From positions 1 to 64,000 of the forward strand of contig JAFVEZ010000031.1 of assembly GCA_017475745.1 (NCBI GenBank): a stretch of 64,000 nt of DNA, given 5' to 3'. The notes under the pieces were generated by a model. The model had not been told where the DNA came from and searched no databases. It saw nothing but the letters and a program-made list of their open reading frames with translations. The DNA is from Selenomonadaceae bacterium. GTDB taxonomy: Bacteria > Bacillota > Negativicutes > Selenomonadales > Selenomonadaceae. The position numbers were made by a program, and so were the translations under genes. Below are positions 12,431 through 59,647 of this stretch, in pieces. The stretch's first letter is position 1. Each line of letters opens with the position of its first letter.

Positions 12431-15400
12431 CTAAATATCACCTTGTTTCTTGTCAGTAAACTGGACAAGTTTTATATCTTGTTGCAATTCTTCAGACTGA
12501 AGTGACAATTCACCGGCAGTTGAAGGTTTATGAGATATTATATCCGTCAAGTCACTACCGTCAACAAGAACATCATCGACAAATAGATCATCAACAAGGC
12601 GTTCCGTATAAGTTGCCACAGTAGCGGTCTTCTTGTTGTAGGTGGTAGTTGTCGTGGCGCCGTAATCTTGTACCTGTATCTCAACGTCCGCACAGTTCTT
12701 GAAGGTAATAGACCCGCTGCCAATCGCCAGCACATAGTCACTGCCGCTCACTTTGCTCTTGGTTTCATTGACTTTAGTCTTGGCACTTCCCAATACTATC
12801 ACGTCACCCGCAGCATAGTTAGTGATGACATCTTTGCCGTCACCAGTCGTATAAGCGTAGAACATCTTACCGGCATTACCACCAGAAGCAAGACCGGTAT
12901 CTGGACTGACCGTCGCAGAGCCACTCAATGTATCATCGCCTTTGCCGCCTTGGATAGTGCCACCCTTAGTCGCTACTAAAGTGATTGTATCAGCTTTCGT
13001 ACCACCCTTGATGTAGGTAGTATAATTATTACCGGTCAAGTTCACTGGAGTCGTCCTCTTGGAGGCATTAATAGTCTTGATAGTATCGTCATTGGAAGGT
13101 GCGATATTGGCACCATCATTGTTAGTAACCTTCAATGTCTCAGGATCACTCAAAGTCAATGTCTCTGTCTTACCTTCAGCATTGGTCAACTTCAAAGTCT
13201 TATCTACTCCGTTGAGTATCTTGATTGTGTTTTCAGGCGTTACATTATTTGACACAACGCCGATACCTGTCTTAGTGACATAACCTAGATTCAATGTCAC
13301 TGTCATATCACTATCAACACTGTAATCAAGCAGAGAGAGTGCATAGTTTATAGTTGCACCACCAGATACTGCAGCATTAACGCTGGCTTGCAGCTCAAGT
13401 CTGTCATTCTTCTGATCGTGATCGGTTATGACCATATTGCCACCGTTGTAAATGATAACGTCTTTGCCCGCGCCGGAAGTAACTGTGTCATTACCGCCGC
13501 CACTTATGAATGTATCGGCACCAGCACCAAGTATCACAGTATCCGCACCATTACTACCGTATACGATATCATTGCCTGCGCCTGAATCTATATATGCACC
13601 TGGAATTGAATCACTTATCACTAATTTACTTGCTTCAAGGGTGTCAGCCTTCTTGCCGCCAAGCAAAGTAGAAGTACTCTCATTGCCAACTAGCCACACA
13701 GCCTTAGTGCGTTTAGAAGCATCTATACTCTTGACGTTCTTGTTGCTACCAACATCTACCTTGGTACCATCGGCATTTGCAACTTCAATCTTCTCACTGC
13801 CATAGACTTGAGCGCCTGCCTTGCCGTCACTGCCGACAAGAGTGATCTTCGTTGCTGCCGCACTCTTAACAGTAGCATGGTGCTCAACTGTATCAGCGAC
13901 ACCAGTTCCAGAAGAATAAGTGTAAGTAAACACCAGATCACTTCCAGAAGCTTCACCATTATTAAGTGTAACATTATCTCCAAGCCTTATCTTATCGTAA
14001 TTGCCCTTGGCAGAGGTATAGTCAGTTATCAATACATCGCCTTTGCCGTCAAGGAGGAATACATTAGCACCGCCAGCACCTGTGAGGGTATCAATACCGT
14101 CCAAGGCGCCATTGCCCGACAAGGTATCCGCCTTCGCCGTGCCTGTGATGTTGTTTGACTTGCCATTGCCAACAACATACATCGCCTTGGTCCTCTTTGG
14201 CTTGACAGAGCTTGGCAAAATATTCACCACGTTTGGATTGGCGCTTACATCAATAGTTGTACCGTCGGCGTTGACTACAACTACCTCAGTCGATACCAGA
14301 TCAAGTGCAGAGGTATTGACCACTGTCTTACCTTTGGCATTGGTACTCTCTGTGGCAATGCTTATCTTGTAGGCACCAATGGCAGGCAGGCTCGCAGCAG
14401 TACTTACTCCTACAATCGTTGCATCTTCGCTTGCACTCACTATGCTGCTGTAACCTCCGGCATCCCAGATAGTCACAGTGCCGACCGTACCTTTACTATT
14501 GGCAATCGTCAATATCACATCATTAGCTGTAGTCGTCACGTTCTTCGCGATAGTCTTCTTCTTGTTCTTAGCAACTTCCCAGACGCCGCTTGCACTCAAT
14601 GATGCCTGGACACCTGTCAAGGTTGTATTTCTAATAGAATCGTTCTCGTATTGCGCTGAAGTAACTGTGGCATCAGCAACGTAGTAGCCTTCTGGCAGTC
14701 TCAGAACATCTTTACCAACCTGATAATCTGTGATGATATCATACTCTGTACTTGTAGTTGGATTAAAGTAGAATACATCTTTACCATCACCACCTGTGAG
14801 GTAATTAGCTTCAGCTTTTGAAAGACTTCTATCCGAACCGCCGCCTCTACTTCTCAAGGTATCGTTACCCTTGCCTCCAACCAATGTACCGACAACTTCG
14901 TTGCCAATCAAGTAATCAGCCTTCTTACCGCCAGTGACAATATATTTAGTCTCCGATTTGCCACCTTCATAGCCTGCCTGTATAGTAGCGGCCTTGGTCC
15001 TGCTGGAAGCACTGATTGCATTGTAGGCAGTGTCACTCGAATCTATATAAACCGCCTTAAGGGTAGTTGGTTCGGTTTTGTTGGCGACTGTCCATTCATA
15101 AGGGTTAGCATAAATAGTGTCATGACTGATCGTTGCACCACTTGAGTCAATAATTGTCACCATCTTATCCTTGGCGTTCTTGAGAGTCAAGCTGTCATTA
15201 ATAAGCATAACACTGCCAGAAGAAACTGTGCTGAATATGAATGTAACGTCCTCACCGTTGAAGCGAATACTGCCACTGCCATTCGCAGCCACATTAATAG
15301 TATCAGGCAGAAGATTGGAAGCAGTGGGAATATGGCTTAAAGCTGTATCGCTGCTGATGATGATGACATCACTCTTGGCAGATTTCTTATTCCAGGTATA

Positions 15401-18400
15401 ATCTTCAATAGTGACATTGCCGCCTCTGTAAATGAAAGTATCGGCACCAGCGTTGCCTGTTACGTCAGTAGATGTCATATACCCGCTCTGCTTGCTTGAG
15501 TAGATGGTATCATCACCTTTACCACCGATTAAGGTGTTGTTGTTGATATATTCTAATTCTTTATCACTTTTACCGGTATTGTTGACAGCATTACCCAATA
15601 TAACAATCGGCTTCTTGGCACTTCTCTGAGAGGCGTCAACGACCTTCAAATAATCATTGTTTGCACCATCTGAAGCATCAACAGTTGCACCGTCTACATC
15701 AAGTACCTCTATCTCACTAGCTCCAAAGACCTGTGTACTCTCGTCTTTGACGATCTTGGTCTTGTTGGTCTTGGTCTTCTTGTCGTAGTATTCTTCCTCG
15801 CGTTCCTTAACTATGCTGATCTTTTGACCGAAGCCACCTTGAATTGTAATATCACCATCACCTGTTGCAGTATGTGTTCCATCTATCTTCTTGCTGTAGG
15901 TGAAGTGCATAACGATATCACTAGCGACATCGCCATCACCTATCGCCTTTATACTTGCAATGTTTAGACCTTCAATAAACTCCAATTTGTCTTTACCCGG
16001 AGTGTAGTCAGTAATGACTTCCATGAAGGTACTGTTGCTATGCATGAAGATATCTTTTCCGGAACCACCTGTAAGGGTTGAGATACCACCCGTTGAAGGT
16101 CCGCCGTTGAGGGTATCATTGCCGCTACCTGCCTGAATGGATATACCATCACCTTCAACTGTAGACCTAGAACTGGTTGAGGTAATGCTAATGGCTTTTT
16201 TTCGTCCACCGTCAACAACAGCCTGCACTCCACCATCAGCTAATATATATGTGCTGCTCTTGTCGTCAATGGTAATGATCGGCAAGCCGAAGGTCTGCGT
16301 GTTACTCTTGCCATCTGCATCGACAATGGTGATATTCTTGCCAAGCCCACCTTTGACGGTAATGTGGTTGTCCATGGTAGTATCATCATCTTTAGTGGTC
16401 TCTATGACAAGGAGCAGGTCTTCTGTAGAGCCAGCAACCGAACTGGAAGACTTCAAAGCTTGATTGGACAGCAAGACGATTGAATCTGCTTCTTTCTTGG
16501 CATTGGTATTATAGTCGGTGATGAGAATATCACCGCCCGGTGCCAACATGAACGCGTCATTACCTTTGCCGCCGGTTATAGTTGTCACTACAGGCATGTT
16601 ACTTGTATCTGTGCTATATGTACGATTATTGGTTGCACCGATAATCGTATTAGCATTGGCATTGCCGATTATTCCGAGATTCAGATTTCTTCTGAGCGTA
16701 CTACTCACTGCAACTGTAACTTCAGAACCGTCAATGGTATCTATTTTACTTGTATCTGATACAATCGCGCCTGCGTCAATCGTTGCAACTAGAGCATTGG
16801 GCTTAAAGTCAAGAATACCGTTTTCCTCAACGTCATCATCTTCAATCTTAGCAAGTGTACCAGCATATGTCATTCTATATTTAGTGCCGTCGCCGCGGTC
16901 AATAGTAAGCTTCGGCGGCAAGTAATTGATAACCGCCTTGCCTTTCTTCTTAACCCCGCTATCTACGGTATCAGCAATACCCTTGATGACAACCTTGCTC
17001 TTACCGATAGTGAGCTGCACATCATTGGCACCCTTCTTGGTAACGAGTGTCGAAGCGGTGATATGTACATCAGTAGAAGCCATTTTGATAATATCAGTTC
17101 CAGCTTCAATGCTGACTATTGCGTCCGTGCCATCAACAGTATCATAGATGAAAGTATCAACAACTCCTGCTGTACCGTAAAGGGTATCTTTACCTGCACC
17201 GCCTTGTAAGCTGTTGGAGCCAGTCTTAGAACCCATGATGACGTTCTTGCCACTGTTACCGATCAAGTAAAGATTGCCAGAAGCACTACCGCCATCAAGA
17301 GTGACCACCTTAGCATTGAAAGTAGTATCGACAACACCTATGGTTGTATCGCCATATGCATATTCAATAGGATAAACATCTGTACCAACGCTCAAGCTCT
17401 TGTTGCCATACTTCTGAGAAGCTATTGTCTCTTCACCACCAAGAGTGTCGGTTGTCTTGACAATAGTAACCAATGAATCTTGAGCACCCTTGAGGGTTAA
17501 AGTAGTCTTGTTCTTGCCTTTGGCATTTGTAACAGTAAACACAACGTCTGTTGCACCCTTTTTGGTATTGAGGGCTGAGGTGCTGATAGTTGTATCAGGA
17601 TTGGCGAGTTTGATAACATCACTCAAGGTCGGATCAGTGGTGCCAATATAGTCGGTAATGACATCATTGCCCGTACCACTATAATAGAGGAAAGTATCAT
17701 AATAAGGAGTCGCCGCATCTAATGAGGAGTGCCCACCGCTCATAGTGTCCTTGCCTGCACCACCGGTGATTGTATCGCGAAAACGGCTACCCACTATGCT
17801 GTTGGCTATCTTGTTGCCCTCAATGTAAACGCCGACACCGGTGATAAACCTGGATACCATGGCGCCAGTGGCAGGATCAGCCATAAGAGTAGAGAATTCA
17901 GAGGTTGAGGCGTCAATTAGTTTCACCTTGTCGCCGAGCTTGTTCGTCACATCAGTCAAAGAGGTACTAACAGTGGCCTGGTCCGTGACGATATAGTCTG
18001 TCGCGTTGCGATAAATCATAGTGTTACCTGTATCGACCGAGCCATCAGGTTTCAAAAAGGTGATACGCCTGTTCTTGCCATCCTTGACAGTGAGAGTGGT
18101 CTTCTTCTTACCGTCCAATGCAATAGTGAAGATGACATCGTTCTTTTTCGTTGTGTAACCGAGTACTGAGCCACTACTAAGGAGTATGGCATCAATAGCT
18201 TTGCCGTCCTCATCAGAAGCACTGTCGTAGTTAGTGATGACGTTGGTGCCCTGTCCTTCAGCAAAGACGAAAGTATTATGTACATACACGGTGCTGGGTT
18301 TGGAGTACTCACCAGTAGAGACAGTGTGCCAGCCTTCACCACCTGTGAGGGTATCTTTACCCGCACCACCAATGAGAGTGTTGTCTACGAAGTTGGAGCC

Positions 18401-19129
18401 AACAATGGAATTTGCCTTTGAGTTGCCTGTGATGACAAGACTGCCATTACTGGCATTTGTTCCTATGATAGTCTTGACAGAGGTGTTGAGGGTGGTATTC
18501 ATTACAGTGGTGCCGGTAGTGGCAGTAAGTTCCGTAGCACCAAAGGCTTGACTAACCTCGTTGATGATATTACCGTTGAGGTCGACGACTTTAAGCTCTT
18601 GCTCTTTACCATTGTTGATAGTAAATGCCGATTTATCGGAATTGGTAATAACAACCTTATTCTTGCTGACACTAACTTTGGTTGGCGTGACGCCATTAAG
18701 CATGATGACATCACCTTGAGTCGCAGAGTAGTCAGTAATGACGTTCTTGCCAGCACTACTGATAAAGGTATCTGCTCCTTCGCCACCAGTGAGAGAGTCT
18801 GCACCATCACCGCCGCTAAGGGTATCAGCACCTTTGCCACCGATAATATTGTTCTTCTTGTCGTTGCCAACGAGACGAATCGGATCATTCCTACCAGATG
18901 CATCGAGTGTCACCAGTGGAGTATAGCTAACGGCACTGAATATCGTGGAAGCATAGGCATCAGTTATAGCGACAGCCTTTGCCTTACTGGTATCAGTAGT
19001 GGGTGAGAAAGTAAGCCCCGTATCCTCCGCATCAAACTTCTCAATATAAGCAGCTTGCTCAGATATTGGAGCTAAAATATAATCATCTCTTTGAGTATCT
19101 CTCTTATCTTCTAACTTAACAGCAGCCAC
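12431..19129 (-). CDS. Giant RTX-like calcium-binding repeat protein
   Basis: 2232 residues built of about eleven modules averaging 200 residues. Each module reads: a DASxR strand (LDASGRNDP, VDASQRSAK, IDASKRTKA), a GN turn, nonapeptide glycine repeats (GGKGADTLSGGDGADSLTGG), a VITDY motif, a hydrophobic strand, and a fold ending in FG..EI.V. GGxGxDxLx repeats are the calcium-binding beta-roll of RTX proteins exported by type I secretion. No N-terminal signal peptide is present, as expected for that route, but no ABC exporter is nearby. GTG 19129 is chosen because AAGGAG is eight bases upstream. Adhesin or surface-layer function is inference. Confidence 0.85.
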   Translation of the reverse strand: MAAVKLEDKRDTQRDDYILAPISEQAAYIEKFDAEDTGLTFSPTTDTSKAKAVAITDAYASTIFSAVSYTPLVTLDASGRNDPIRLVGNDKKNNIIGGKGADTLSGGDGADSLTGGEGADTFISSAGKNVITDYSATQGDVIMLNGVTPTKVSVSKNKVVITNSDKSAFTINNGKEQELKVVDLNGNIINEVSQAFGATELTATTGTTVMNTTLNTSVKTIIGTNASNGSLVITGNSKANSIVGSNFVDNTLIGGAGKDTLTGGEGWHTVSTGEYSKPSTVYVHNTFVFAEGQGTNVITNYDSASDEDGKAIDAILLSSGSVLGYTTKKNDVIFTIALDGKKKTTLTVKDGKNRRITFLKPDGSVDTGNTMIYRNATDYIVTDQATVSTSLTDVTNKLGDKVKLIDASTSEFSTLMADPATGAMVSRFITGVGVYIEGNKIANSIVGSRFRDTITGGAGKDTMSGGHSSLDAATPYYDTFLYYSGTGNDVITDYIGTTDPTLSDVIKLANPDTTISTSALNTKKGATDVVFTVTNAKGKNKTTLTLKGAQDSLVTIVKTTDTLGGEETIASQKYGNKSLSVGTDVYPIEYAYGDTTIGVVDTTFNAKVVTLDGGSASGNLYLIGNSGKNVIMGSKTGSNSLQGGAGKDTLYGTAGVVDTFIYDTVDGTDAIVSIEAGTDIIKMASTDVHITASTLVTKKGANDVQLTIGKSKVVIKGIADTVDSGVKKKGKAVINYLPPKLTIDRGDGTKYRMTYAGTLAKIEDDDVEENGILDFKPNALVATIDAGAIVSDTSKIDTIDGSEVTVAVSSTLRRNLNLGIIGNANANTIIGATNNRTYSTDTSNMPVVTTITGGKGNDAFMLAPGGDILITDYNTNAKKEADSIVLLSNQALKSSSSVAGSTEDLLLVIETTKDDDTTMDNHITVKGGLGKNITIVDADGKSNTQTFGLPIITIDDKSSTYILADGGVQAVVDGGRKKAISITSTSSRSTVEGDGISIQAGSGNDTLNGGPSTGGISTLTGGSGKDIFMHSNSTFMEVITDYTPGKDKLEFIEGLNIASIKAIGDGDVASDIVMHFTYSKKIDGTHTATGDGDITIQGGFGQKISIVKEREEEYYDKKTKTNKTKIVKDESTQVFGASEIEVLDVDGATVDASDGANNDYLKVVDASQRSAKKPIVILGNAVNNTGKSDKELEYINNNTLIGGKGDDTIYSSKQSGYMTSTDVTGNAGADTFIYRGGNVTIEDYTWNKKSAKSDVIIISSDTALSHIPTASNLLPDTINVAANGSGSIRFNGEDVTFIFSTVSSGSVMLINDSLTLKNAKDKMVTIIDSSGATISHDTIYANPYEWTVANKTEPTTLKAVYIDSSDTAYNAISASSRTKAATIQAGYEGGKSETKYIVTGGKKADYLIGNEVVGTLVGGKGNDTLRSRGGGSDRSLSKAEANYLTGGDGKDVFYFNPTTSTEYDIITDYQVGKDVLRLPEGYYVADATVTSAQYENDSIRNTTLTGVQASLSASGVWEVAKNKKKTIAKNVTTTANDVILTIANSKGTVGTVTIWDAGGYSSIVSASEDATIVGVSTAASLPAIGAYKISIATESTNAKGKTVVNTSALDLVSTEVVVVNADGTTIDVSANPNVVNILPSSVKPKRTKAMYVVGNGKSNNITGTAKADTLSGNGALDGIDTLTGAGGANVFLLDGKGDVLITDYTSAKGNYDKIRLGDNVTLNNGEASGSDLVFTYTYSSGTGVADTVEHHATVKSAAATKITLVGSDGKAGAQVYGSEKIEVANADGTKVDVGSNKNVKSIDASKRTKAVWLVGNESTSTLLGGKKADTLEASKLVISDSIPGAYIDSGAGNDIVYGSNGADTVILGAGADTFISGGGNDTVTSGAGKDVIIYNGGNMVITDHDQKNDRLELQASVNAAVSGGATINYALSLLDYSVDSDMTVTLNLGYVTKTGIGVVSNNVTPENTIKILNGVDKTLKLTNAEGKTETLTLSDPETLKVTNNDGANIAPSNDDTIKTINASKRTTPVNLTGNNYTTYIKGGTKADTITLVATKGGTIQGGKGDDTLSGSATVSPDTGLASGGNAGKMFYAYTTGDGKDVITNYAAGDVIVLGSAKTKVNETKSKVSGSDYVLAIGSGSITFKNCADVEIQVQDYGATTTTTYNKKTATVATYTERLVDDLFVDDVLVDGSDLTDIISHKPSTAGELSLQSEELQQDIKLVQFTDKKQGDI

Positions 19130-19214
19130 AAGAATCACTCCTTCGTTAAATTCAAACTACTTCCGTGTAAATCTATTGTAACGTACAGACAACAACACAA
19201 ATTAAACTGTTATA

Positions 19215-26607: not shown

Positions 26608-27534
26608 TTATTCATGCTTAACGATATCATAGACCATCTTGGATAGTAACTCATCTTTGAAGTTGTCGGGTTTTAGGGTGCAACCAAAAATCATTCTATT
26701 AAATTGATGTTCATTGATATTCAATAATTTTTTCAAATACTTTAAGTAGTTGTGGTTATAGAGACGTTTCCAACGTAAGATATCCTTTACGTCCTCGATA
26801 TGGTTTTTATATTGTTCATTTAATTGAAAAAGCTTGATATTTTCAAGTATTTTTTTGCTCTTTTCTTGTGGTGTGTTAATATCTATTTCCCATTTTAAGT
26901 CCATATCATTGTTTTCACCTAATAGCGCACCAACATTGTGAGGTTTTACTTTGATGATACAATCATCATCAAAACCTTCATCATGTGGTGACAAGATAGT
27001 AGTTGTCGATGAACGCTTGTATTTTTGGTTACATGGTTTGCAACATGGAATCATATTCCAAATTGACAGCGAAAACAAAGGGTAAATGTCCTTGTTCAAA
27101 AAATGATCTATATCGCCCAAATACCCGCTATCTTCGACAATGTGAATATACTGACGATTGCAATAAGGACAAACCTTCACGTCCATTAACTTAAATATTT
27201 TCCAACGTGTCATTTTATTAATCTTTTCATAGTTAAACCACAGCTTAACTTCATCATTGAATCTACGAAATTTTTTTGAATTTCCTCTTGAAGACATATG
27301 ATAATAAAACTTAATTCTAGGATATTTTTTTAGCAATTCTGTTTCCGGCAATAATAAAATATCAGTCATAACATCAGCATTTTTGGTGATCTGACACAAA
27401 AATTTTCGTGTTTGCCTAGAGAAGAAATCTGTAGCAGGATTTTTTTGAGTATCGGGATAACACATTTTTTTCATGATATAATCTACATACCATTTCCAAC
27501 GACTTACATTGTAATGATAAGGAATTTTAATCAT
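26608..27534 (-). CDS. HNH endonuclease-like protein (PtuB-like)
   Basis: 308 residues. The nuclease core shows CPYC (122-125) with the following NRQYIHI, DIDHF (141-145) and PCCKPCNQKYK (163-173), so the CxxC pairs frame a treble-clef HNH site. The rest is charged and helical. The ATG overlaps the end of the ATPase gene by eight bases, showing tight coupling. An ATPase plus HNH protein is the layout of Septu-type anti-phage systems, where the nuclease is the effector. Assignment is by architecture; I have not compared it with named PtuB sequences. Confidence 0.72.
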   Translation of the reverse strand: MIKIPYHYNVSRWKWYVDYIMKKMCYPDTQKNPATDFFSRQTRKFLCQITKNADVMTDILLLPETELLKKYPRIKFYYHMSSRGNSKKFRRFNDEVKLWFNYEKINKMTRWKIFKLMDVKVCPYCNRQYIHIVEDSGYLGDIDHFLNKDIYPLFSLSIWNMIPCCKPCNQKYKRSSTTTILSPHDEGFDDDCIIKVKPHNVGALLGENNDMDLKWEIDINTPQEKSKKILENIKLFQLNEQYKNHIEDVKDILRWKRLYNHNYLKYLKKLLNINEHQFNRMIFGCTLKPDNFKDELLSKMVYDIVKHE

Positions 27535-29464
27535 TTTTTCTCTCCAATTTCCGCAGTGCTGTCAAATGTTTTAGTATCTCCTCAAAATGACTGCTCTTTT
27601 CCAAATCGGTGTTATTATCTTCACGAGCAGAACGATACAATAGATTGTTCAGCCTATTTTGTATATGATTTCTGACGATTGGTTCGTCAATGATCTCACT
27701 TTGGCGCAACAACTCTTCATAAAACGTTGAAATATCAGTAAACTTGTTGTCTGTAGCTGTAAACTTTTTTTCAAATTCGTCAAGTTTTTTCAATAACTTA
27801 TCGACGTACTGTTTGGAAAATTCACCACAAGGAAAAGTTATAAAGAATGATTCCTTCATTATGTCGTTAATGTTGCTCATGAAGCCAAATTCAGCTAGAC
27901 GAAAAGAGATTTTCTTGTCATCTCTTCGTTCGCAACAATGAATATGTTGTCGAGGAATATCAGAAAGTATTATCGGCGAGTGAGTGGTAATGATGATTTG
28001 ATAGTAATAGTCCGAAAAGGGTGGTTCATTCAAGATAGTTGTCAAGGTCGACACAAGTTGTCTTGACCATTCTGGATGAAATGAACAATCCGGCTCATCA
28101 AGAAGCAAGATACAGGACCTTCCTGTGGTTTCTCTTGAAACGTTCGGCCATACGCTCAAGCCTTTGTAAATGGTGGCATAAAGGTTTATAAGTTCCATTT
28201 CTCCAGAACTCATCTGTCCGTAACTTACCTCGAAGAATCTCATATGGTTCAAAAAAGGTGCATCGTCCTCATTTGGATTATCATGGATAGTTCCAAGATA
28301 ATCATTGTATTCGTCCAAAAGTGCCAAAAATGCCCAAACTGAATCAGCTTTATCATCATTCATAGGTACTCTAATAGTTTTGTCTTCAATAAAAAAATAT
28401 TGCGGTGCTATTCCTTCAAGAGCAACACAAACGGCAGTCACTATATAACCATTTACTTCTTGCTTGGCCGTCAATTTCTCAATAGCTCCTAGCAAGTATT
28501 TTTTGCGTGACGAATAATCATAGAGATTTTCTTCGTCATGATATTCCGATTGAAAATTATTCTTCTGTATTAGTGATACTAATGTCATTTCCAAGTAATG
28601 TATAATGAAGTAGCGGCGAATGTCTTCAGCTTCATATTTATAACCAAGTATTTCAAAAGATATAGGTTCTGGCCAAAGTATACCAGTTTTACCATATATT
28701 GCCAACGAACGCATTTTAATTGCATCATTATTCAATTCAAGGACATTGACATCATCTTTCATTCGTATGGTCAACCGTGAAGCCATTGGGACAATTTCCA
28801 TATTGCCTGGCAAAGTTTCTTCTAATGTCGCCTTTCGCAAATATTCAAACACACCAACATAACCAGGCGAAGAAAGATAACTTCGATATGCAAGAAGTTC
28901 TACGCCTGCAATGGATTTTCGTCTTACTCTTCGCGTATACCAAGAGCGACTATTTGTAGCATCATATAACATGTACAGGCAATGAAAATCTTCTTGCCGC
29001 ATTGTATCAAAATAACCGTCTATTTTATTTGTCTCGAAGTCATAAGAAAACCAAACAGAATATTGAGGTTTTAACCAGCCAGCAGAGTCTAACAATTTCA
29101 AAACTTTATTGTTGTAGCCTTCAATGGCAAATTTATTATCCTGCAAATGATAGACGGCAAACCAGTTTTTCTTATGATCTTTATCACCATTATATTCACT
29201 CAGACCAAACTCGTTTATTCTGTCTCCAGTATTCAAGCCCAAAAGATTCATGATGCTGCTTTTACCGCTACCATTACGCCCAACTAACAAATCTATACCA
29301 AGAATATTTCTTCCATACATTGCCGTCAATACAGTATCTCTCTTGTTGATAACTAACTCTTTAGTGTGGCTATTATATGAGATATCATAGTCATCGGCAA
29401 AATTTAAACATTGATTTGAAATGTCACGACCAATATCGCCTATCCAAACAAACAACAATCTCAT
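27527..29464 (-). CDS. AAA/ABC-type ATPase of a Septu-like defence pair (PtuA-like)
   Basis: 645 residues. The ATP site is complete: Walker A GRNGSGKSS (62-70), signature SYGQMSSGEMELI, Walker B CILLLDEPDCSFHPE, and a THSP switch His. The centre is a long helical insertion. The architecture is the OLD/RecF-like ATPase of defence systems. ATG 29464 has GGAGG seven bases upstream. It follows hypF on the same strand after 45 bases with no terminator visible, so it may be read from the hypF transcript. With the overlapping HNH gene it forms a two-gene system. No reverse transcriptase or TOPRIM domain is seen. Confidence 0.75.
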   Translation of the reverse strand: MRLLFVWIGDIGRDISNQCLNFADDYDISYNSHTKELVINKRDTVLTAMYGRNILGIDLLVGRNGSGKSSIMNLLGLNTGDRINEFGLSEYNGDKDHKKNWFAVYHLQDNKFAIEGYNNKVLKLLDSAGWLKPQYSVWFSYDFETNKIDGYFDTMRQEDFHCLYMLYDATNSRSWYTRRVRRKSIAGVELLAYRSYLSSPGYVGVFEYLRKATLEETLPGNMEIVPMASRLTIRMKDDVNVLELNNDAIKMRSLAIYGKTGILWPEPISFEILGYKYEAEDIRRYFIIHYLEMTLVSLIQKNNFQSEYHDEENLYDYSSRKKYLLGAIEKLTAKQEVNGYIVTAVCVALEGIAPQYFFIEDKTIRVPMNDDKADSVWAFLALLDEYNDYLGTIHDNPNEDDAPFLNHMRFFEVSYGQMSSGEMELINLYATIYKGLSVWPNVSRETTGRSCILLLDEPDCSFHPEWSRQLVSTLTTILNEPPFSDYYYQIIITTHSPIILSDIPRQHIHCCERRDDKKISFRLAEFGFMSNINDIMKESFFITFPCGEFSKQYVDKLLKKLDEFEKKFTATDNKFTDISTFYEELLRQSEIIDEPIVRNHIQNRLNNLLYRSAREDNNTDLEKSSHFEEILKHLTALRKLERKND

Positions 29465-29509
29465 AACCAAACCTCCGTCAAAATACAGCCGTTGCTTTAG
29501 GATTAATCA

Positions 29510-48461: not shown

Positions 48462-50369
48462 TTATCTATTCTTCCAGTTCACCTTATATCTATTTGCAAT
48501 ATTATCGGTGTCGCTTTCTAAAAAGCCTTCATGTATCAATTCATTTATGATCTTTTCGGGTGAGAAGCCCGCTCTTTTCAATTCGCTCTTGAGTTTATAC
48601 TGGTATACCGTGATGTGATCGCCCTTTATTGTGCCAAAGATCGGGTCTTGTACTTTGATTAAATCATTGTTAATTAAGAAGTGTTTACGCCTACTGGAGA
48701 TAAATTCCTTTATAAATTCCTTGGCTCGATGGGAATTGCTGGTGTCTGATTCACCGACTAATTCCTTCAGTATTTTAACTGTATGGCTTTCTTGTAGTTC
48801 TTTAATGGCAATATTGATATTGACATTACGGAAGTAAACGTTAAAGATCACATCAGCAGTGTAAGCAGCCGCAAGGAAATTAATATGATCGGGAATGGCT
48901 TCCGGTCTCTTGTCTTTGAAGTCCTTCTTGAGAAATTTGTAGGTTGATTTGATATCATTAATATGATCCTTTATGGTGTCAACCCACTCACGCCCAATCA
49001 ATCCGTAATTATCATTGACAAATTCATGAGTCTCGTCTGCCAATTCACGTGGAAGAACTTCACTGCAATGAAGCTCAATCGTCCGTCTCTTCTTGCCTTG
49101 GTCGGAATTGAAGCCGGTCAAGGGCTGTTCTCCTGTTATGAGAGCGATCGTTGAGAATCTCTTCAAAGTTTCAAGCTCACCGCTCCTAGCCGTGCGCCCT
49201 TTACTGACACCTTCACCAATGATGTGAGCAAACTTATCAATATTGTCGCGTTGGAATTGATTGGTAATATTTTGAAGTTCATCAACCGCAAATGGCAGAT
49301 TATTAGAACTTACCGCCCGACGCTCCAAACTGTTGAAGGTAGAGTTAAATGTAGGGACATATTTGGGATCGCCGTAAATAGACATCGGAAACTTGATGGC
49401 ACCCGCCGTCTTACCACCACCGCTCTTGCCCCAGATACAAAGTGTCATATTTCGCATACCTATAATCTCAATGAATGATGCCGCTAATGCAGCACCAAAG
49501 GCAAGCCGCGCATGAGGGTGATTTTTGATTTTATCGTAATGGGCCAGCCACTTTTGACGACTACCTCTCGTTTGATACATTAGATTAATCTCATCGTTTT
49601 CACTGGTATCAACGATATAATCTTTGCCACTCGGCGGATATATAAAATCACTGAACTCATTGCGCCAACCTATCTTACTCACGATTTTGGTGACTGGTAT
49701 TCTATCTAGGTTGTGACGAAGCAACTCACTAATATATATTATAGTCTCACGAGCAATGACTGAATCAACACTGAGACCGTAGCGACTCAGGCTTACAAGT
49801 CTATGCTCTTCTGAGAAATCATATCTGTCGGCGGTAATAAAGTGCCAACCTTCGGAGCTGTAGACGGCGACCTTAAATTTTTCAGTCTTATCGTCGATAT
49901 TCTTGAGACGCTCAACTATAAAGAAAGGCGAATAGGCAACGAATTTCGTCATATGACTGCCATTTACCAACACTTTATCGACAACAATTCCACGAGTTGA
50001 ACAGGTGTAAGCCGAAGGTATTATAAGTTCCAAGCCATTTGGAAGAGATGGCAGATTAAATATATCTTCATTTGCAGGATTGAGTTTTATTACTTTTGAG
50101 TTCTCTTCAAATCGCCCAAATTCTCGTCGAATACGGCTGGTATATTTTCTTACAGCTTCATTGAAGAGCGTCAACGCTACTTCTTTGTGAGATTTGCACT
50201 TTGCCTTGAAGTCCGCAAAAGCCAGCTCATCATAGATCTTGCAGAGCGCTGCCGCGTTCAATATATCCTTACTCAATATAGTTTGATTGCTGAAGTCTTC
50301 AACCTTATTTAACAATTCAATCGCTTGCTGAAGATTAGCTTCTATCATTTTGTATTTTAAATCTCTCAT
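48462..50369 (-). CDS. DUF927 domain ATPase
   Basis: 635 residues. An N-terminal helical region is followed by the DUF927 ATPase core: KIGWRNEFSDFIYP, CIWGKSGGGKTAGAIKFP (Walker A), LPFAVDELQNI (Walker B), ALITGEQPLT. A C-terminal winged-helix-like tail follows. Such proteins are typical of plasmids, integrative elements and prophages, where they sit near primases. Here it stands alone between ubiX and DUF4931 with no integrase or phage gene, so it looks like a relic or solitary cargo gene. Confidence 0.8.
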   Translation of the reverse strand: MRDLKYKMIEANLQQAIELLNKVEDFSNQTILSKDILNAAALCKIYDELAFADFKAKCKSHKEVALTLFNEAVRKYTSRIRREFGRFEENSKVIKLNPANEDIFNLPSLPNGLELIIPSAYTCSTRGIVVDKVLVNGSHMTKFVAYSPFFIVERLKNIDDKTEKFKVAVYSSEGWHFITADRYDFSEEHRLVSLSRYGLSVDSVIARETIIYISELLRHNLDRIPVTKIVSKIGWRNEFSDFIYPPSGKDYIVDTSENDEINLMYQTRGSRQKWLAHYDKIKNHPHARLAFGAALAASFIEIIGMRNMTLCIWGKSGGGKTAGAIKFPMSIYGDPKYVPTFNSTFNSLERRAVSSNNLPFAVDELQNITNQFQRDNIDKFAHIIGEGVSKGRTARSGELETLKRFSTIALITGEQPLTGFNSDQGKKRRTIELHCSEVLPRELADETHEFVNDNYGLIGREWVDTIKDHINDIKSTYKFLKKDFKDKRPEAIPDHINFLAAAYTADVIFNVYFRNVNINIAIKELQESHTVKILKELVGESDTSNSHRAKEFIKEFISSRRKHFLINNDLIKVQDPIFGTIKGDHITVYQYKLKSELKRAGFSPEKIINELIHEGFLESDTDNIANRYKVNWKNR

Positions 50370-52692: not shown

Positions 52693-53730
52693 TCAACTGA
52701 AGAAGACGCGTACTATATCATTCTTTGTAGCAAATATCATCAAAATCAACAGCAACACCACGCCTACTCTTTGTGCATAGATAAGAGCCTTTGGACCAAG
52801 CGGCTTGCCTCTCACTGCTTCAAGTGCAAGCGTAACAAAGTAACCGCCGTCCAATGCAGGCACCGGCAAGAGATTTATTATCCCCAAATTTAAACTCAGT
52901 AGAGCAGCAAAGTTAAGCAGAGGTATAAATCCAGTCTCAGCAACTCTGCCTGCCATTTGTGCGATTCCTATTGGTCCTGCTAAATCTGCTTCAGTTGGAC
53001 TGCGGAAAATCTCAACCAATGCTTCTAGCATCATTTCAACAATCTCTACTGTCCTTTGCAAAGAAAGCTGCATTGCTTCAACAAATCCTACTTCTTTAAT
53101 GACAGCCATACTTTGCACACCGATCATAAATCGCTTGCTTTCTTTCTCATACGTCGGTTGAAGTGCAGTTTCATTGACTTGCCCTTCTCTTTCGTAAACA
53201 ATATTCAAAGGTTGTCCTTCAGTATCATTGCGAATGGTCTCAACAAAGGTAGTCCAATTAGCAACTTCAGTGCCATTGACGCTGATGATGCGATCACCTG
53301 CTTTGATACCAGCAATATCGGCAGCTTTACCTTCTATGACAGTTCCAATCACAGGTTCAGTTGAAGGAGTAGCCACACCCGAAAAGAAGAATATCCCAAA
53401 GAACAGCAGCACCGGCAATACAAAATTCATTGCAGAGCCGGCAAGTATAACAATCATTCGCGACAACACCGGTTTTTCGCAATATCCACGAGGACCGGCA
53501 TCATTATTTAAAGGATCCATTCCAGCTATATCATTAAAACCGCCGAGTGGCACTGCACGAATTGAGTAAACTGTCTCACCACGCTTAGTACTTATCAACT
53601 TCGGGCCGAAACCTATTGCAAATTCATCTACACGCATTCCCGTCATCTTCGCCGTTATGAAGTGACCGAACTCGTGAACCAGGACCAAAAGTCCAAACAC
53701 AAACAAGGCAGCAGCTATAGTTAATACCAT
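52693..53730 (-). CDS. rseP: Intramembrane site-2 zinc protease RseP
   Basis: 345 residues. Membrane helices carry the zinc site VLVHEFGHF (HExxH) and the third ligand region LLPVPALDGGYF. A PDZ domain (GIKAGDRIISVNGTEVANW) lies between. The protease cleaves anti-sigma factors and signal-peptide remnants in the inner membrane. ATG 53730 is chosen for its spacing to GAGAGGTGA. The 3' untranslated part before the hairpin at 52550 is about 115 nt. Confidence 0.95.
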   Translation of the reverse strand: MVLTIAAALFVFGLLVLVHEFGHFITAKMTGMRVDEFAIGFGPKLISTKRGETVYSIRAVPLGGFNDIAGMDPLNNDAGPRGYCEKPVLSRMIVILAGSAMNFVLPVLLFFGIFFFSGVATPSTEPVIGTVIEGKAADIAGIKAGDRIISVNGTEVANWTTFVETIRNDTEGQPLNIVYEREGQVNETALQPTYEKESKRFMIGVQSMAVIKEVGFVEAMQLSLQRTVEIVEMMLEALVEIFRSPTEADLAGPIGIAQMAGRVAETGFIPLLNFAALLSLNLGIINLLPVPALDGGYFVTLALEAVRGKPLGPKALIYAQRVGVVLLLILMIFATKNDIVRVFFS

Positions 53731-53770
53731 AATCCTCACCTCTCTGAAAACTTCAATCTATTTGGAAATC

Positions 53771-54613
53771 TCATTTTGATGATAGCTTTCTTCTGATGCT
53801 TTCCTCAAGACTTAACACACCAGCGAAGTAGCGACGTTTAATGTATCTCAAATCAATATACAAATCTTTTTCGGAATCATTTTCGCTGATAAAAATTTGC
53901 GGCACTTCCTTAATCTTTAATTTATTGTGAACTACATACAAATTAAGAAGCCGCTCACCAATATAACCCATCATTCTGAGATTTTTCTTGTCGGATAAAT
54001 CAATGTGCTGTTCAACGTCCATCAATATTCTAAATAGCCATTCTGAATAAACATCAAAGATCGGTTTAGTTGAGACCATCAAATTGGCAAAATACTCAAA
54101 CCTTCGACCAAAGACACCATCAACTGACCTCATATATTCAGGATAGTTGCGTTTAATTGCATCTATCATCAAATAATAATTATCTTCACCATGTGCATCA
54201 ATGAATTGAGATTTGATGTCTCCACCCGAAAAAGCGTAAGGTTTAGGTAAAATTATATCATAATTACTTCTTTTTAGTATATTCTTTACACTTTGAGTAT
54301 CTAGTAGAGCTTCACAATCACCAATGGATTTAAAAGTCCTTCTGCAAAGACGACGTGGAATATCATTCAGCCAAAGAAATCTTCGATAGTGACAAAGACC
54401 AACAATATCACTTTGACTGTCATTTTGCCAAATCCAATAATGACCGGTCAATTCGCAGTAAAATGGATTTTTATTGCTGATAGAATCTCCCGTACTATCG
54501 TTGAGACCTTTCGATAAATTCTCATTAGGCTTACCAACCATCAGAGGTATGTAATTTTCATTCTTCGGAAATTCGCGTTCAGCTTGTGTTGCGATATATA
54601 TACTTATCTTCAT
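53771..54613 (-). CDS. DUF4422 glycosyltransferase
   Basis: 280 residues. KISIYIATQAEREFP at the start, ELTGHYWIWQN and IVGLCHYRRFL are typical of DUF4422 capsular or LPS transferases. The ATG overlaps the stop codon of the GT8 gene (ATGA), so translation is coupled. Acceptor sugar unknown. Confidence 0.85.
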   Translation of the reverse strand: MKISIYIATQAEREFPKNENYIPLMVGKPNENLSKGLNDSTGDSISNKNPFYCELTGHYWIWQNDSQSDIVGLCHYRRFLWLNDIPRRLCRRTFKSIGDCEALLDTQSVKNILKRSNYDIILPKPYAFSGGDIKSQFIDAHGEDNYYLMIDAIKRNYPEYMRSVDGVFGRRFEYFANLMVSTKPIFDVYSEWLFRILMDVEQHIDLSDKKNLRMMGYIGERLLNLYVVHNKLKIKEVPQIFISENDSEKDLYIDLRYIKRRYFAGVLSLEESIRRKLSSK

Positions 54614-55593
54614 AATTTTAATTTTTCTCTTAAATATAAATAATACCACTTTAATGCAGTTGAAAACTGGTTTTGATGTAAAGCCGCATTACCCATCATT
54701 CGCTTTTCACGATAATTTCTTGGCTTGTAGACAAAATTAGACCAAAGAGATTTATTTAAATACTCATGATAAATCAATCTTTTGGGATTTTCACACCAAG
54801 GCTGCCAAGGTTTAAGAAGACCGGCAAAGTGCAAAAACAGCGTATCGGAGGGTATGTCCTCATTTTCTTCATTCATTAGAAAAAACTGATTAAAACGAAC
54901 TGGAATGGCTTTAATTTGTCCGATTGCTATAAGGTTTAGTGCATCTTGATCTTGATATGATAATTTTCGTTCATTTAGCAGTTCTATCATTTTTTCTGAC
55001 ATTTTAAATTCATTCCACTTTTGTAAATCAATATACAAAACTCCAGCATTGAAGTAGTCTTGACTTTCTGGAATTTTGATTTCCTGTTTGTGAGCAGGCA
55101 GCCAATCTCCACGGTCAAGCACCGCTAATATCATTTTATCATCAAAAGACAAATTTTTCAACTCTAAAATTTTACCGACACACAAAGTGTCAGCATCAAT
55201 GTACAAAAGCTTAGAAATTGAAGGATAGAGCACTTGAGCTATTATAATTCTGTTATATGTAGCAACAGTATAGCTCTTTCCCACATGAAAATTTTTAAAA
55301 ACACTGACATCAATGTAATATACATCAATTTGGATATTTCTATAATGATCTGACAGTGTCTTTAATTTATTGATATCTTCATCTAAAATAGAGTTTAGAA
55401 ACACATGAACGTACAAATTACAATCAGGATTGTTAATTAAAATTGAAGTGATCATTATACCCATCTGAGGTACATAGTGAGAATCAACACCAAACGCGAT
55501 ATTAAATCTATCTTTGTTCTCCTCAGATTGAGGAATATTCCCAAAAGATTCTTTTCGATAAATAAATTGTTGTAAATCTAGTTTTTTACACAT
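54610..55593 (-). CDS. Glycosyltransferase family 8
   Basis: 327 residues. NIAFGVDSHYVPQMGIMITS at the start of the fold, KLLYIDADTLCVG (DxD metal site), FNAGVLYIDLQKW and LHFAGLLKPWQ mark GT8, whose members add galactose or glucose to LPS cores or proteins. It overlaps the gene before by one base and the DUF4422 gene after by four. Confidence 0.9.
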   Translation of the reverse strand: MCKKLDLQQFIYRKESFGNIPQSEENKDRFNIAFGVDSHYVPQMGIMITSILINNPDCNLYVHVFLNSILDEDINKLKTLSDHYRNIQIDVYYIDVSVFKNFHVGKSYTVATYNRIIIAQVLYPSISKLLYIDADTLCVGKILELKNLSFDDKMILAVLDRGDWLPAHKQEIKIPESQDYFNAGVLYIDLQKWNEFKMSEKMIELLNERKLSYQDQDALNLIAIGQIKAIPVRFNQFFLMNEENEDIPSDTLFLHFAGLLKPWQPWCENPKRLIYHEYLNKSLWSNFVYKPRNYREKRMMGNAALHQNQFSTALKWYYLYLREKLKL

Positions 55594-57074
55594 TAATTCG
55601 TATCCCTAATTTCACCATTTGGACCAATATCAAGGGTGCACTCATTCTTTTCCACAGGTTTGTGTTTTTGTCCATCAACTACTAACTCAGATTTATCATT
55701 AAATACAAATGTAATTTTCTCTACTCCGTAAGGATTTACAATATTCTTTATATCAACTTTCATTTTACTAGGAATAATATACTTCACGTCTTGTGCCGGA
55801 GCAAAATTACTAATTGTAATGACCTTTTTATTCTTATTATTTCGTTCAAGTTCAAAATCTTCCTTAGTCAATTTTACTTCTTTAGGATTTGTATTGGTAC
55901 TTTTGGATTGATTATCTTCATTAGCATTGACATTTTCAGATTTTTGTTTTTCATCAAAAAACTCTTTTACTCCTAAAATTTTTATCGCTTCATCATCAAG
56001 ATTAATCAAACTACCATGACGTAAAGGTCTGTTTTCAGCTTCAACGTAATAAGCCTTATAAGGCCCGTTTTCAATGTCATTTTCATTTGCAATCCAAACA
56101 GTATGGCCGGACTTACCAGCATTATCATATTTTTGAGAGAAGTTATCGGCATAAATATAAACTCTACCATCTCGTGTTAATATGGAAAAACCCTCGTAAC
56201 CACGAATACCTCTTAGCGGCCATTCTTTAACTTCAGTAAATTTTCCGTCAGGACTATCAGCTCTAAACAATATAGGAGACTTATTATCATTATTGGTAAT
56301 GCGAGCTTCATTTTTGATAACCATATAATATTTACCGTTGACTTTGCGAACTTGGGCATCTATGTAATTGGTTCTGTCATTGATTGATTTTTCAAATACT
56401 GTAACGGCTTCTTTTCCATCAATAATAGGCTTTTCAACTTCTTCAGTCTTTTTGGCTTTTTCGGCTTCGTTGACTTTTTCATTTTCGTCATTTTTTTCAG
56501 CTTTCTCATCTTTAACCAATTTGAAAAATTTATCAGATTCTGCGATATTCTCAATTTTATACACATATAAATTAAATTGAGCTTCATAAGGTTTAGGGAT
56601 TAAACCTTTCTGTTTGGCAAAATAAACATAAGCCAGACCGTCGTCATTAATAAATAAATCTGGTGCCCAAATAAAACGATATTTAACATCACGTTCGACA
56701 ACTTTATAAGGTTTCGATATTTCCCATTCTTTAAGATCCTTAGATCTGTAAAGTCTGAAGGTATTTTCAGAAGTTTTCGGTTCTACTAAGCAGATATAAA
56801 AGTAACCGTTGTAATATTGACAGGATATATCACGACCTTTAATATCTTCAATAGTACTAAAGTACTTAAGGTCATCACCATTTTCAGATTCTGACAGATA
56901 ACACTGCATAGTTATATCATCATTTGAAGTGAAGAAAGTTCCAAAAATATAATTTTTGTGATCGTTAGATGTCAAATCATCATCACTTGCTTGTACTAAA
57001 GGAAAAGTTGTCGCAACAGATGTTAAGAGTGTCAAGGCGATCGTTTTACAAATACGTTTGACTTTACGCTTCAT
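55593..57074 (-). CDS. Secreted glycoside-hydrolase-like protein (GH43/five-bladed propeller type)
   Basis: 493 residues with an N-terminal signal peptide (about 1-29, ending VQASDDD). The body has blade-like repeats: YYNGYFYICLVE, RFIWAPDLFINDDGLAYVYFA, IDAQVRKVNGKYYMVIKNE, YEGFSILTRDGRVYIYAD. WAPDLF and similar motifs resemble family 43 glycosidases. A charged Lys/Glu repeat (AEKNDENEKVNEAEKAKK) interrupts the fold near residue 200, and a Ser/Thr/Asn-rich linker leads to a C-terminal beta domain. Catalytic residues were not assigned with certainty. Confidence 0.65.
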   Translation of the reverse strand: MKRKVKRICKTIALTLLTSVATTFPLVQASDDDLTSNDHKNYIFGTFFTSNDDITMQCYLSESENGDDLKYFSTIEDIKGRDISCQYYNGYFYICLVEPKTSENTFRLYRSKDLKEWEISKPYKVVERDVKYRFIWAPDLFINDDGLAYVYFAKQKGLIPKPYEAQFNLYVYKIENIAESDKFFKLVKDEKAEKNDENEKVNEAEKAKKTEEVEKPIIDGKEAVTVFEKSINDRTNYIDAQVRKVNGKYYMVIKNEARITNNDNKSPILFRADSPDGKFTEVKEWPLRGIRGYEGFSILTRDGRVYIYADNFSQKYDNAGKSGHTVWIANENDIENGPYKAYYVEAENRPLRHGSLINLDDEAIKILGVKEFFDEKQKSENVNANEDNQSKSTNTNPKEVKLTKEDFELERNNKNKKVITISNFAPAQDVKYIIPSKMKVDIKNIVNPYGVEKITFVFNDKSELVVDGQKHKPVEKNECTLDIGPNGEIRDTN

Positions 57075-57091: not shown

Positions 57092-58099
57092 TTAGGAATC
57101 CCATTCACAAATAAATCCAAAATGATTTAAACCAAAGAAGTCTTCCTCATTTGCAACTACTCCCTCTGATGATACGTCATTCCAAAGACCGAATTTATGT
57201 TTGGGAGCTTTTGGATTGGTATTTTTATATACCATTAATGCCTTTGATCTTATATTATCAGGTTGTCCACTTGCCCAATTTGCATAAGCAAATGGAGTTT
57301 TGTCTATCCAGACAAATTTTCCGTTAGGTGCTCTCTTTGCACCGAGCCAATAATTATTGCGTTGTCCTTGGTTCAGCAAAGTTTCAATAAACTTTTGTTC
57401 AGCCACTGAACCAATAGTAACGAGGTGACCACCTTGATTTTCGCAGGCCATACTCGCATCATTCCAAGTCATACCCACATCAACAATTTGATAATAATGA
57501 CCTTTAAAAAGCGTTGCTTTTGACTTATCTATGCCGACACTATTCATATTTATTGGATCTTGTTTTATTGGATCTGGTTCTGGTTTTATCGGTTCTGGTT
57601 TTATCGGCTCTGGTTTTATCGGCTCTGGTTTTATCGGCTCTGGTTTTGTTGGTTCTGGTTTTGGATTAACAATTTCTTCGATACGTTTTCTCATTGCCTC
57701 TACATCAACCGTCACTCTTGCTTGTATGGTTACTGTACACCTTCTATTATTCCTATCAATATCAAACTTAGGATCGTTAAGGAGTGCTATCGTTCCGTGT
57801 GTTAAAGATTTGAGATTATCTTCTGTTACTTTAAAATCTTCCACTTCGGTATATTCGGTGATAAAAGTACAAACCATTTCCAAAGCTCTTATTTCTGCCC
57901 TAAGGAGTGCCTTTTTTCTAGCAATGGTTTCCGATTCGTCATCACCCCATCCGTAGTCATAACTTGCTGCTTGAACAACTTTTTCTATGAGTGGATTTTC
58001 TTCTTCAGCATAGATGGTATTTGGATAGAGCAACCCAAGACTCATATTCATCAGCCCAACGGCAAGAGCCAATTTTTTTAAAAAATTTTTAATAGCCAT
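57092..58099 (-). CDS. Secreted protein with LPP20/FlgO-like and C-type lectin domains
   Basis: 335 residues. Signal peptide (1-31, ending IYAEE). Residues 43-140 hold an LPP20/FlgO-like domain (ARKKALLRAEIRALEMV, RRCTVTIQARVTVDV). Residues 147-175 are a KPEPI repeat linker. Residues about 195-335 form a C-type lectin domain: WNDASMACENQGGHL, NYWLGA, NWASGQPDN with a QPD sugar-binding triplet, GLWNDV and GFICEW. Only two cysteines (219, 331) occur in the lectin domain. QPD suggests galactose-type ligands. It lies before the GH43-like gene and glycosyltransferases. Confidence 0.8.
   Translation of the reverse strand: MAIKNFLKKLALAVGLMNMSLGLLYPNTIYAEEENPLIEKVVQAASYDYGWGDDESETIARKKALLRAEIRALEMVCTFITEYTEVEDFKVTEDNLKSLTHGTIALLNDPKFDIDRNNRRCTVTIQARVTVDVEAMRKRIEEIVNPKPEPTKPEPIKPEPIKPEPIKPEPIKPEPDPIKQDPINMNSVGIDKSKATLFKGHYYQIVDVGMTWNDASMACENQGGHLVTIGSVAEQKFIETLLNQGQRNNYWLGAKRAPNGKFVWIDKTPFAYANWASGQPDNIRSKALMVYKNTNPKAPKHKFGLWNDVSSEGVVANEEDFFGLNHFGFICEWDS
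57569..57660 (-). repeat. Tandem repeat encoding KPEPI
   Basis: Five to six copies of a 15-bp unit (GGTTTTATCGGCTCT-type on the plus strand) encoding the Pro/Lys linker of the lectin protein. Unit changes are mostly silent. Length change by slippage would stay in frame. Confidence 0.85.
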
Positions 58100-58148
58100 G
58101 ACACTAACCTCACTAACTTCATATACACACCACATAATTAACAATTAT

Positions 58149-58214
58149 TTAATATTCAATATCAATTTCTACTCTTGCAATTATATTTACTGTACAAGTT
58201 CTCCTTGCATAATC
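58149..58214 (-). pseudogene. Remnant of an LPP20/FlgO-like domain
   Basis: A 21-codon stretch encodes YARRTCTVNIIARVEIDIEY and a stop. It matches residues 118-134 of the lectin protein (RRCTVTIQARVTVDVEA). The preceding frame is blocked by stops. Probably the decayed end of a duplicated copy upstream of the gene. Confidence 0.45.
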
Positions 58215-58356
58215 TCAATATTTTCTTTTACCGACAATTATAAAATTGATGTTTAAAACATTAAAATTATATTAACCTGATTCAATTATAAAACATTTTC
58301 ATAATAATGACAATTAAAAATAAATTAAAAAATACTAAAAAAATCATTAAAATAGT

Positions 58357-59511
58357 TCATCTCAAACTGATGACACGACACTGATATTGACCGTAGATAC
58401 GCTTGATATCTTTTGCTCGCTGACCATTATACTCGTCTAGTAGTTCGTGAATATATTTCACTACAATCTCAACAGGTATGTTTTTCATACAAGCCATATT
58501 TTCTTTACCTTGACGCGGACAAATGTGCTTTCCGCAAGGGTGGCAGATTTCTGGCGTTTGAATTAGAATATCCTTGGCATCATATGGATAGAAGCCTGGA
58601 ACAGGTGAAGCTCCGAACATTGTTACAATGGGAATATTCCTCGCAACGCCGATGTGCATAGGTCCCGAATCAGTCGTCAAGAACAAGACGCAATTATCAA
58701 GAAGACCAGCAACCTGCGCCAGTGTTAGCTTGCCGGTGAAGATTTTCACTTTATCGCTGTCACGATGCTTCATATTTGCAATGCAGGCGTTGACGATCTC
58801 AATGTCCATACCACCGCCAGGGAAGGCAATGGCATAACCCTCATCAATCAGTATGTCTGCACATTCGGCGAAGTAAGAATCAAGCCAGCGCTTGGTCTGC
58901 CAGCTCGCGCCGATATTGAAAGCAATGACTTTATCATCAGCACTGAAGTTGTCACTGAACATTCTCGCCATCTCAGCTTCCGTCTCTTGAGGAATCCACA
59001 TTTCCAATCCACCGTCATCAATATTGGTGACTCCAAGAGTCTTGCTGAGGACATCAAAGTGAGATTTGACCTGATGTTGATTGCCTGGGACATACTCTGT
59101 ATTGAAGCCTTTTTTGATGTGCCGCGCGATTGAAGGATTGGGCATAACCTTATCAAAGAAGAGAGAGAAGCCAGGCTTGGAGTAACCTACAATCTTATTG
59201 GCACCACTGAGGGCAGCTATAGCGGAAGCACGCTCATTGCGGTGAAGATTTATTACTAAATCAAAATGTTTAGCACGTATCTTGAATATGAACTTAAAGA
59301 AGTTAATTAATCTATCGTCCGCGCCTTTTTTGTCGATCAAAATACATTCATTAATACGTTTATTATATTGAACGAGATCAGCAGCTCGCTTATCAGCAAG
59401 AAGTGCAATGTGGGCGTTGGGATAATTGGTTCTCAATGTCCTAAGTACAGGTGTCGTCAGCATTAAATCGCCAAGCTGTGACATATTTATAACCAGGATT
59501 TTATTGTACAT
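58357..59511 (-). CDS. Glycosyltransferase family 9 (heptosyltransferase-like)
   Basis: 384 residues. Rossmann start KILVINMSQLGDLMLTTPVLRTLR, FDLVINLHRNERASAIA, FNIGASWQTKRW and the donor loop TTDSGPMHIGVARNIP are GT9 signatures of LPS core heptosyltransferases. A C-terminal cysteine cluster (CHPCGKHICPRQGKENMAC) is present, as in WaaQ-like members. GAGGTTA precedes two adjacent ATGs; the second is used. Confidence 0.9.
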   Translation of the reverse strand: MYNKILVINMSQLGDLMLTTPVLRTLRTNYPNAHIALLADKRAADLVQYNKRINECILIDKKGADDRLINFFKFIFKIRAKHFDLVINLHRNERASAIAALSGANKIVGYSKPGFSLFFDKVMPNPSIARHIKKGFNTEYVPGNQHQVKSHFDVLSKTLGVTNIDDGGLEMWIPQETEAEMARMFSDNFSADDKVIAFNIGASWQTKRWLDSYFAECADILIDEGYAIAFPGGGMDIEIVNACIANMKHRDSDKVKIFTGKLTLAQVAGLLDNCVLFLTTDSGPMHIGVARNIPIVTMFGASPVPGFYPYDAKDILIQTPEICHPCGKHICPRQGKENMACMKNIPVEIVVKYIHELLDEYNGQRAKDIKRIYGQYQCRVISLR

Positions 59512-59647
59512 CATTAACCTCGTTTTAATCTTAATTACTAATTAAATATTCTTCACAAAGTCTAAAATCCCTGCTATATTGCCATATTTATACTTATTGG
59601 GTTGGAGTACACTCAATGAAATGTATATGAAAATTTTCAAAAACATC

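Follow-up and report, generated by a model that had tools for sequence, protein, structure and literature searches.

A predicted bacterial C-type lectin joined to a putative SHS2-like domain heads a WbbM-like gene cassette in Selenomonadaceae

The window, the whole 64,000-nucleotide stretch analysed here, comes from what we judge by its named relatives to be a rumen lineage of Selenomonadaceae. On its minus strand lies a lectin gene, P0001 (57092..58099; ORF list, translation and Pfam). The open reading frame spans 57092-58144, and the ATG at 58099 is the most likely start, giving a protein of 335 residues. Judged by eye from the sequence, residues 1-31 (58007..58099, minus strand) form a signal peptide likely cut after TIYA. 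It is followed by an N-terminal domain (N-domain; residues 37-144, 57668..57991, minus strand), for which alignment, model and structure comparison indicate a strand, a long helix, a beta-hairpin, three strands and a C-terminal helix in an SHS2/FlgP-like arrangement, then by a proline-rich linker (57554..57667, minus strand) and by a C-type lectin domain (CTLD; residues 192-335, 57095..57526, minus strand; Pfam, alignment and model). A Pfam scan of P0001 at E ≤ 1 returned Lectin_C and no further domain. Upstream of the gene, a promoter-like site TTGTCA-17-TATAAT (58285..58313, minus strand) matches 11 of 12 consensus positions; it is a consensus match only, and a 7.2-kb stretch has 45 such sites, compared with 28.3 in shuffled sequence. 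The earlier note had placed the protein in a lipoprotein context, but our own pattern search found no lipobox in P0001, so this part of the claim does not apply to it. In the same kind of search one of seven relatives has a lipobox pattern (FAAC) and the other six have none.

It had also been claimed that a KPEPI repeat joins the lectin domain to the N-domain, and tandem-repeat analysis and linker comparison bear this out: the linker is of the form (KPEPI)n, and its 15-bp repeat at 57579-57662 comprises 5.6 copies with 94% matches (score 140). The repeat units are nearly identical at third-codon positions, which fits recent expansion. Among the eight homologues in genomes carrying the gene cassette described below, the spacers are 38-75 residues long and unlike one another in sequence, being composed of KPEPI, of N/Q/P runs, or of PPVVTQ, PIYQP or TPNP; the spacer of L048 is a charged stretch without proline. 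Such dissimilarity fits a linker that acts as a spacer under weak sequence constraint.

We modelled the window N-domain with AlphaFold2 (18 rows; mean pLDDT 89.3). The model has a helix at residues 27-46, strands at 49-57 and 60-69, and a C-terminal helix at 103-114. A Foldseek comparison of this model with solved structures gave no match at E ≤ 0.001. The top solved match was 9hmf_A (probability 1.00, E 2e-3, TM 0.45/0.48), a chain of 106 residues from the periplasmic scaffold of the C. jejuni flagellum, which we infer from chain length and title to be FlgP. In VIA-align the highest Z was 6.3 for Tip-alpha, followed by 5.5-6.0 for dodecins; these values are middling by the tool's own scale, and the Tip-alpha and dodecin rows are read as a predicted resemblance of fold only. 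H. pylori Lpp20 (5ok8) scored Z 5.2 (rmsd 4.1, 73 aligned), a level at which unrelated-looking rows also appear, and FlgT was not among the VIA-align rows. By sequence, the N-domain profile matched no PDB chain at E ≤ 10, and the neighbouring GH43-like protein matched none at E ≤ 1, so the folds of both rest on models or Pfam. At E ≤ 1, FlgT_N (PF16548) was listed for 14 N-domains out of 20, the strongest at 1.2e-6 and the window N-domain not among them; in a second scan it was listed for 5 of 9 at 14.6-17.9 bits, all below the 28.8 cut-off. LPP20 (PF02169) matched a single one of 20 N-domains (E 0.13) and did not match P0001 at E ≤ 1. Thus the earlier description of this domain as LPP20/FlgO-like is reasonable at the level of predicted fold, with middling scores, but the window protein has neither an LPP20 profile match nor a lipobox pattern.

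According to the part of PMC12222027 available to us, an SHS2-like fold is common to FlgP, dodecin, Lpp20 and FlgT, and ring formation goes along with an insert that follows the SHS2 helix. As modelled, the window protein resembles these proteins in predicted fold, in its post-helix hairpin and in its C-terminal helix; it differs from them in being fused to a lectin and in having neither a Pfam LPP20 or FlgT_N match nor a lipobox pattern. The comparison with FlgP is one of order: helix, hairpin and C-terminal helix follow each other in the model as described for FlgP. Since FlgP forms rings, the hairpin after the helix together with the C-terminal helix makes it probable that the N-domain associates with itself or is docked to the outer membrane. 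The resemblance to FlgP and FlgT would also suit an accessory of flagellar motor rings whose CTLD holds envelope glycan, but the cassette contains no flagellar gene, and the N-domain paralogues in the same genome have TPR-like or other tails; we set this explanation low and regard it as highly improbable.

The stretch that separates the lectin start from the GT9 gene contains a decayed N-domain remnant of 21 codons and a stop (58149..58214, minus strand). Read from 58214 to 58149, it gives DYARRTCTVNIIARVEIDIEY followed by the stop, in a frame different from that of the lectin. The remnant scored 11.8 bits with an N-domain HMM from which the window row had been left out; the highest score among 5000 dinucleotide shuffles was 9.9 and that among 974 window tiles 7.6, so none of either set came up to it. 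Two relatives explain its origin: in L051 an intact open frame of 157 residues with an N-domain stands directly upstream of the lectin gene, and in L047 a single lectin carries two fused N-domains. The domain search reported no further N-domain in L046, L048, L049 or L050. These results support the earlier proposal that a copy of the N-domain was duplicated and then decayed.

The assignment of the C-terminal part as a C-type lectin, made before from the letters alone, is well supported. Lectin_C (PF00059) matches residues 209-310 with 52.8 bits against a cut-off of 22.6 (E 7.7e-14), and in a full-length model (46 rows; pLDDT 86.7) the lectin part has a confident CTLD fold. The lectin model gave 417 matches in the PDB at E ≤ 0.001. 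The best 50 of these are CTLD proteins; one long chain among them has a target TM of 0.25, and the others lie at 0.70-0.83. Among the matches listed, macrophage galactose lectin, CD23 and CRD4 of the mannose receptor are near (target TM ~0.8). Translation and alignment place a QPD motif at residues 279-281 (57257..57265, minus strand) and a WND motif at residues 306-308 (57176..57184, minus strand). Both motifs are kept in all eight cassette-genome homologues; the earlier note had counted a lack of such conservation, coupled with no calcium or sugar binding, against its claim. Cys219 and Cys331 are invariant in the nine rows of lectin alignment A1. QPD is a galactose-type motif and EPN a mannose-type motif. 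The domain resembles the animal galactose-type C-type lectins CLEC10A and ASGR2 (PF00059) in fold, QPD, WND and two outer cysteines. It differs from them in being bacterial, in its attached SHS2-like domain and, in this copy, in lacking a second cysteine pair and in having Ser in place of a likely calcium-site Glu.

This last difference was placed in a survey of 117 distinct CTLDs of at least 107 residues, taken from the collected loci after shorter pieces and near-copies had been dropped. Of these, 74 are canonical (QPD or EPN plus ND). The column of window residue 285 (57245..57247, minus strand) holds Glu, a likely third calcium ligand, in 68 of the 74 canonical domains and in the other seven of the eight cassette-genome homologues, whereas the window has Ser285 and no acid at this position between QPD and WND. 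Some acid lies between the motif and the next strand in 72 of the 74, the window being one of the two without. When the L047 lectin loop is aligned to solved lectins the calcium-ligand column is ambiguous by one residue, and the window is free of acid at either position. Since a likely calcium ligand is missing from the window copy, its sugar binding may be weakened or altered. In this species the CTLD might even be a module that does not bind sugar or that works without calcium, the lectin being in the course of losing its sugar binding after duplication and decay, as the acid-free stretch and the adjoining decayed N-domain copy would allow. We hold this to be improbable: the lectin gene has no stop or frameshift, QPD, WND and both cysteines are kept, the CTLD is 64% identical to that of L011, and the Glu persists in the seven other homologues.

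The lectin heads a row of genes on the same strand, in the order lectin, GH43-like hydrolase, GT8, DUF4422 and rseP-like. The GH43-like hydrolase (55593..57074, minus strand) has a signal-peptide-like start; its start codon at 57074 is our choice within a listed ORF that begins at 57104. It passes the PF04616 cut-off (37.9 bits against 32.2), as do three of four relatives scanned, whereas L047 falls below (24.2 against 32.2). Three acid motifs (RD.S, IDA and EGF), presumably the GH43 triad, are kept in the seven GH43-like proteins compared. It is followed by the GT8 glycosyltransferase (54610..55593, minus strand), by the DUF4422 (GT111-type) protein (53771..54649, minus strand), and by a gene that we take to be rseP (52693..53739, minus strand), which by gene order closes the cassette in relatives. 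A GT9 heptosyltransferase-like gene (58357..59514, minus strand; Pfam/profile match) lies upstream of the lectin in the window but not in relatives, where the upstream neighbour varies. The claim that the lectin sits within a glycan gene cluster is thus upheld, the GH43-like, GT8, DUF4422 and GT9 neighbours all being matched by profile. Two points escaped the earlier note: the change at the likely third calcium ligand of this copy, and that, as judged from sequence, these neighbours form a conserved WbbM-like cassette. The GH43-like gene occurs in 8 of 66 congeneric genomes, the window's own included. It has the lectin directly upstream in seven of the eight (in G031 the lectin is elsewhere) and is followed by GT8 in all eight. 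DUF4422 follows GT8 in seven, the G336 contig ending within GT8, and rseP is present in six, the contigs of G007 and G336 ending earlier.

The two glycosyltransferases correspond to the two halves of WbbM, the Klebsiella O2a galactan polymerase. The DUF4422 protein matches solved WbbM residues 30-287 (E 1.8e-33), the N-half. The GT8 protein matches 3tzt best (E 2.6e-18), then LgtC (9.7e-16) and the C-half of WbbM (residues 302-539, 1.2e-8), while on the LPS 3-alpha-galactosyltransferase model it scores 194.5, below the cut-off of 461. In the portion of PMC12269835 drawn on here, DUF4422 is GT111, the UDP-Galf transferase of WbbM, the GT8 half is a UDP-Galp transferase, and WbbM makes galactan. 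By these matches the cassette DUF4422 and GT8 proteins may transfer Galf and Galp, respectively, the sugar being less secure for GT8 in view of its best match, to another GT8 protein, and its score below cut-off. The likeness lies in adjoining GT8 and DUF4422/GT111 modules; the cassette differs in that the modules are two genes with GT8 first and that a lectin and a GH43-like gene are added. A gene for UDP-galactopyranose mutase (glf) is present in the window's own genome, in all eight cassette genomes and in 36 of 58 non-cassette genomes (44 of 66 overall), and DUF4422 proteins occur in 53 of the 66 genomes of the genus, so neither is specific to the cassette. As far as the part of PMC10115798 available to us goes, a galactofuranan was hydrolysed by two enzymes acting together, one of them a GH43_31 enzyme. 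Wzt_C was matched in none of nine genomes searched, another difference from WbbM, and gives no sign of an exporter reading chain ends; these genomes are incomplete and a missing match is no proof. The O1 and O2 systems differ at the export step, according to the accessible part of PMC11231755, so the Wzt_C result does not decide the matter.

The association between lectin type and cassette is close. All eight genomes with the GH43-like gene carry an N-domain lectin with QPD, and the ten N-domain lectins examined from other genomes, a count to which some weak matches do not belong, are all non-QPD (EPN, EPS or DPN). In a RecA tree of 27 rows (RecA was matched in 27 genomes, of which 26 were used alongside the window and G334 was left out for a partial match; G336 and G001 gave no match), the seven cassette genomes present fall into one starred set of eight together with G337, an 81% complete genome that has no GH43-like gene and whose N-domain lectin is of the EPN type. 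Repeated independent gains joining lectin and cassette were considered and set aside, the cassette genomes forming one clade in this tree. We therefore claim an association, not a repeated one: the co-occurrence is the trait of one clade.

Bacterial C-type lectins had been described as uncommon. This holds in that, within the class, 21 of 300 genomes, belonging to 4 of 97 genera, have a PF00059 match and none of 14 control genomes has one, but less so in that an alignment-based contig scan confirmed 117 CTLD stretches, many of the 80 matches listed being labelled rumen or gut. The same scan with the single window protein as query confirmed no relative; the alignment query did. Related CTLDs bear the labels Synergistaceae/Synergistales, Treponema, Spirochaetaceae and Candidatus Bathycorpusculum (L072, L106, L112, L118 and L124), and their spread across phyla may reflect exchange among gut microbes. 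The window's own genome also has two RTX-like proteins of about 1400 aa with an EPN-type CTLD between beta-roll-like repeats (L009:2495-6769 and L010:2907-6986), and beside the latter stands an ABC transporter that we take to be T1SS-like. Stand-alone CTLDs with a signal peptide and QPD occur at L056:6905-7549, L060:6923-7564 and L057:1670-2386. The CTLD is followed in L056 and L060 by what is presumably a purD-like gene, and in L056 then by genes that we regard as glf-like and DUF4422-like, so that a galactose-type lectin is again found near Galf genes. At L084:4345-5807 an N-domain lectin frame is directly followed by a second CTLD frame. Among the papers listed in literature searches, none had a title that dealt with a bacterial lectin built in this way, from which we claim no absence from print.

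From the domains, motifs, cassette and single-clade co-occurrence observed, we consider it plausible, if somewhat short of probable, that the protein serves in the envelope as a lectin whose ligand is the galactose-bearing glycan made by the same cassette, its location, binding, ligand and oligomer state being predicted. The lectin would be exported to the cell envelope, to the periplasm or the outer membrane, where a spacer changeable in length and letters would carry the galactose-type CTLD. The GT8 and DUF4422/GT111 proteins would attach Galp and Galf to a glycan of LPS type, which the GH43-like enzyme would trim and the lectin would bind with presumed use of calcium and recognition of galactose. 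The main rival is that the lectin, at the surface or secreted, recognises foreign glycans with galactose, of plants or mucin, and serves adhesion or feeding together with the GH43-like enzyme. Plant arabinan and galactan are common substrates of GH43 enzymes, and the occurrence of related CTLDs in several phyla of rumen and gut bacteria, and inside the RTX-like proteins of the same genome, is in line with such a role. We nevertheless deem it rather unlikely, as biosynthetic glycosyltransferases are part of the cassette, none of its genes looked like a sugar importer, and the N-domain resembles periplasmic proteins.

The reading of the cassette's own glycan can be extended into a more speculative form, which we also rate as rather unlikely: one cassette would galactosylate its own envelope glycan, trim the product and bind it with an animal-like galactose-type lectin made multivalent by a FlgP-like domain that forms rings, either to check the quality of the glycan or to anchor the coat non-covalently, the spacer being changeable and the ends held. 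C-type lectins are mainly known as animal proteins that read foreign glycans. If the proposal is true, a bacterium would be reading its own coat, with a galactose-type site that is full in seven of eight homologues, beside a split WbbM-like galactan synthase. The FlgP-like domain would give a bacterium its own means of multivalent display, with an effect like that seen in collectins. Reading of the cassette's own glycan names a testable ligand, and the window copy, without one likely calcium ligand, would serve as a natural control.

Three other loci in the window were noted. An HNH-like protein and an AAA ATPase at 26608-29470 match the PADLOC candidate PDC-M62 (E 7.8e-50 and 1.6e-36) and, more weakly, Septu PtuB/PtuA. 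A 2235-aa RTX-repeat protein (HemolysinCabind, E 4.9e-30) is encoded at 12431-19138, and a DUF927 and Cch helix-turn-helix protein, possibly of a mobile element, at 48462-50369.
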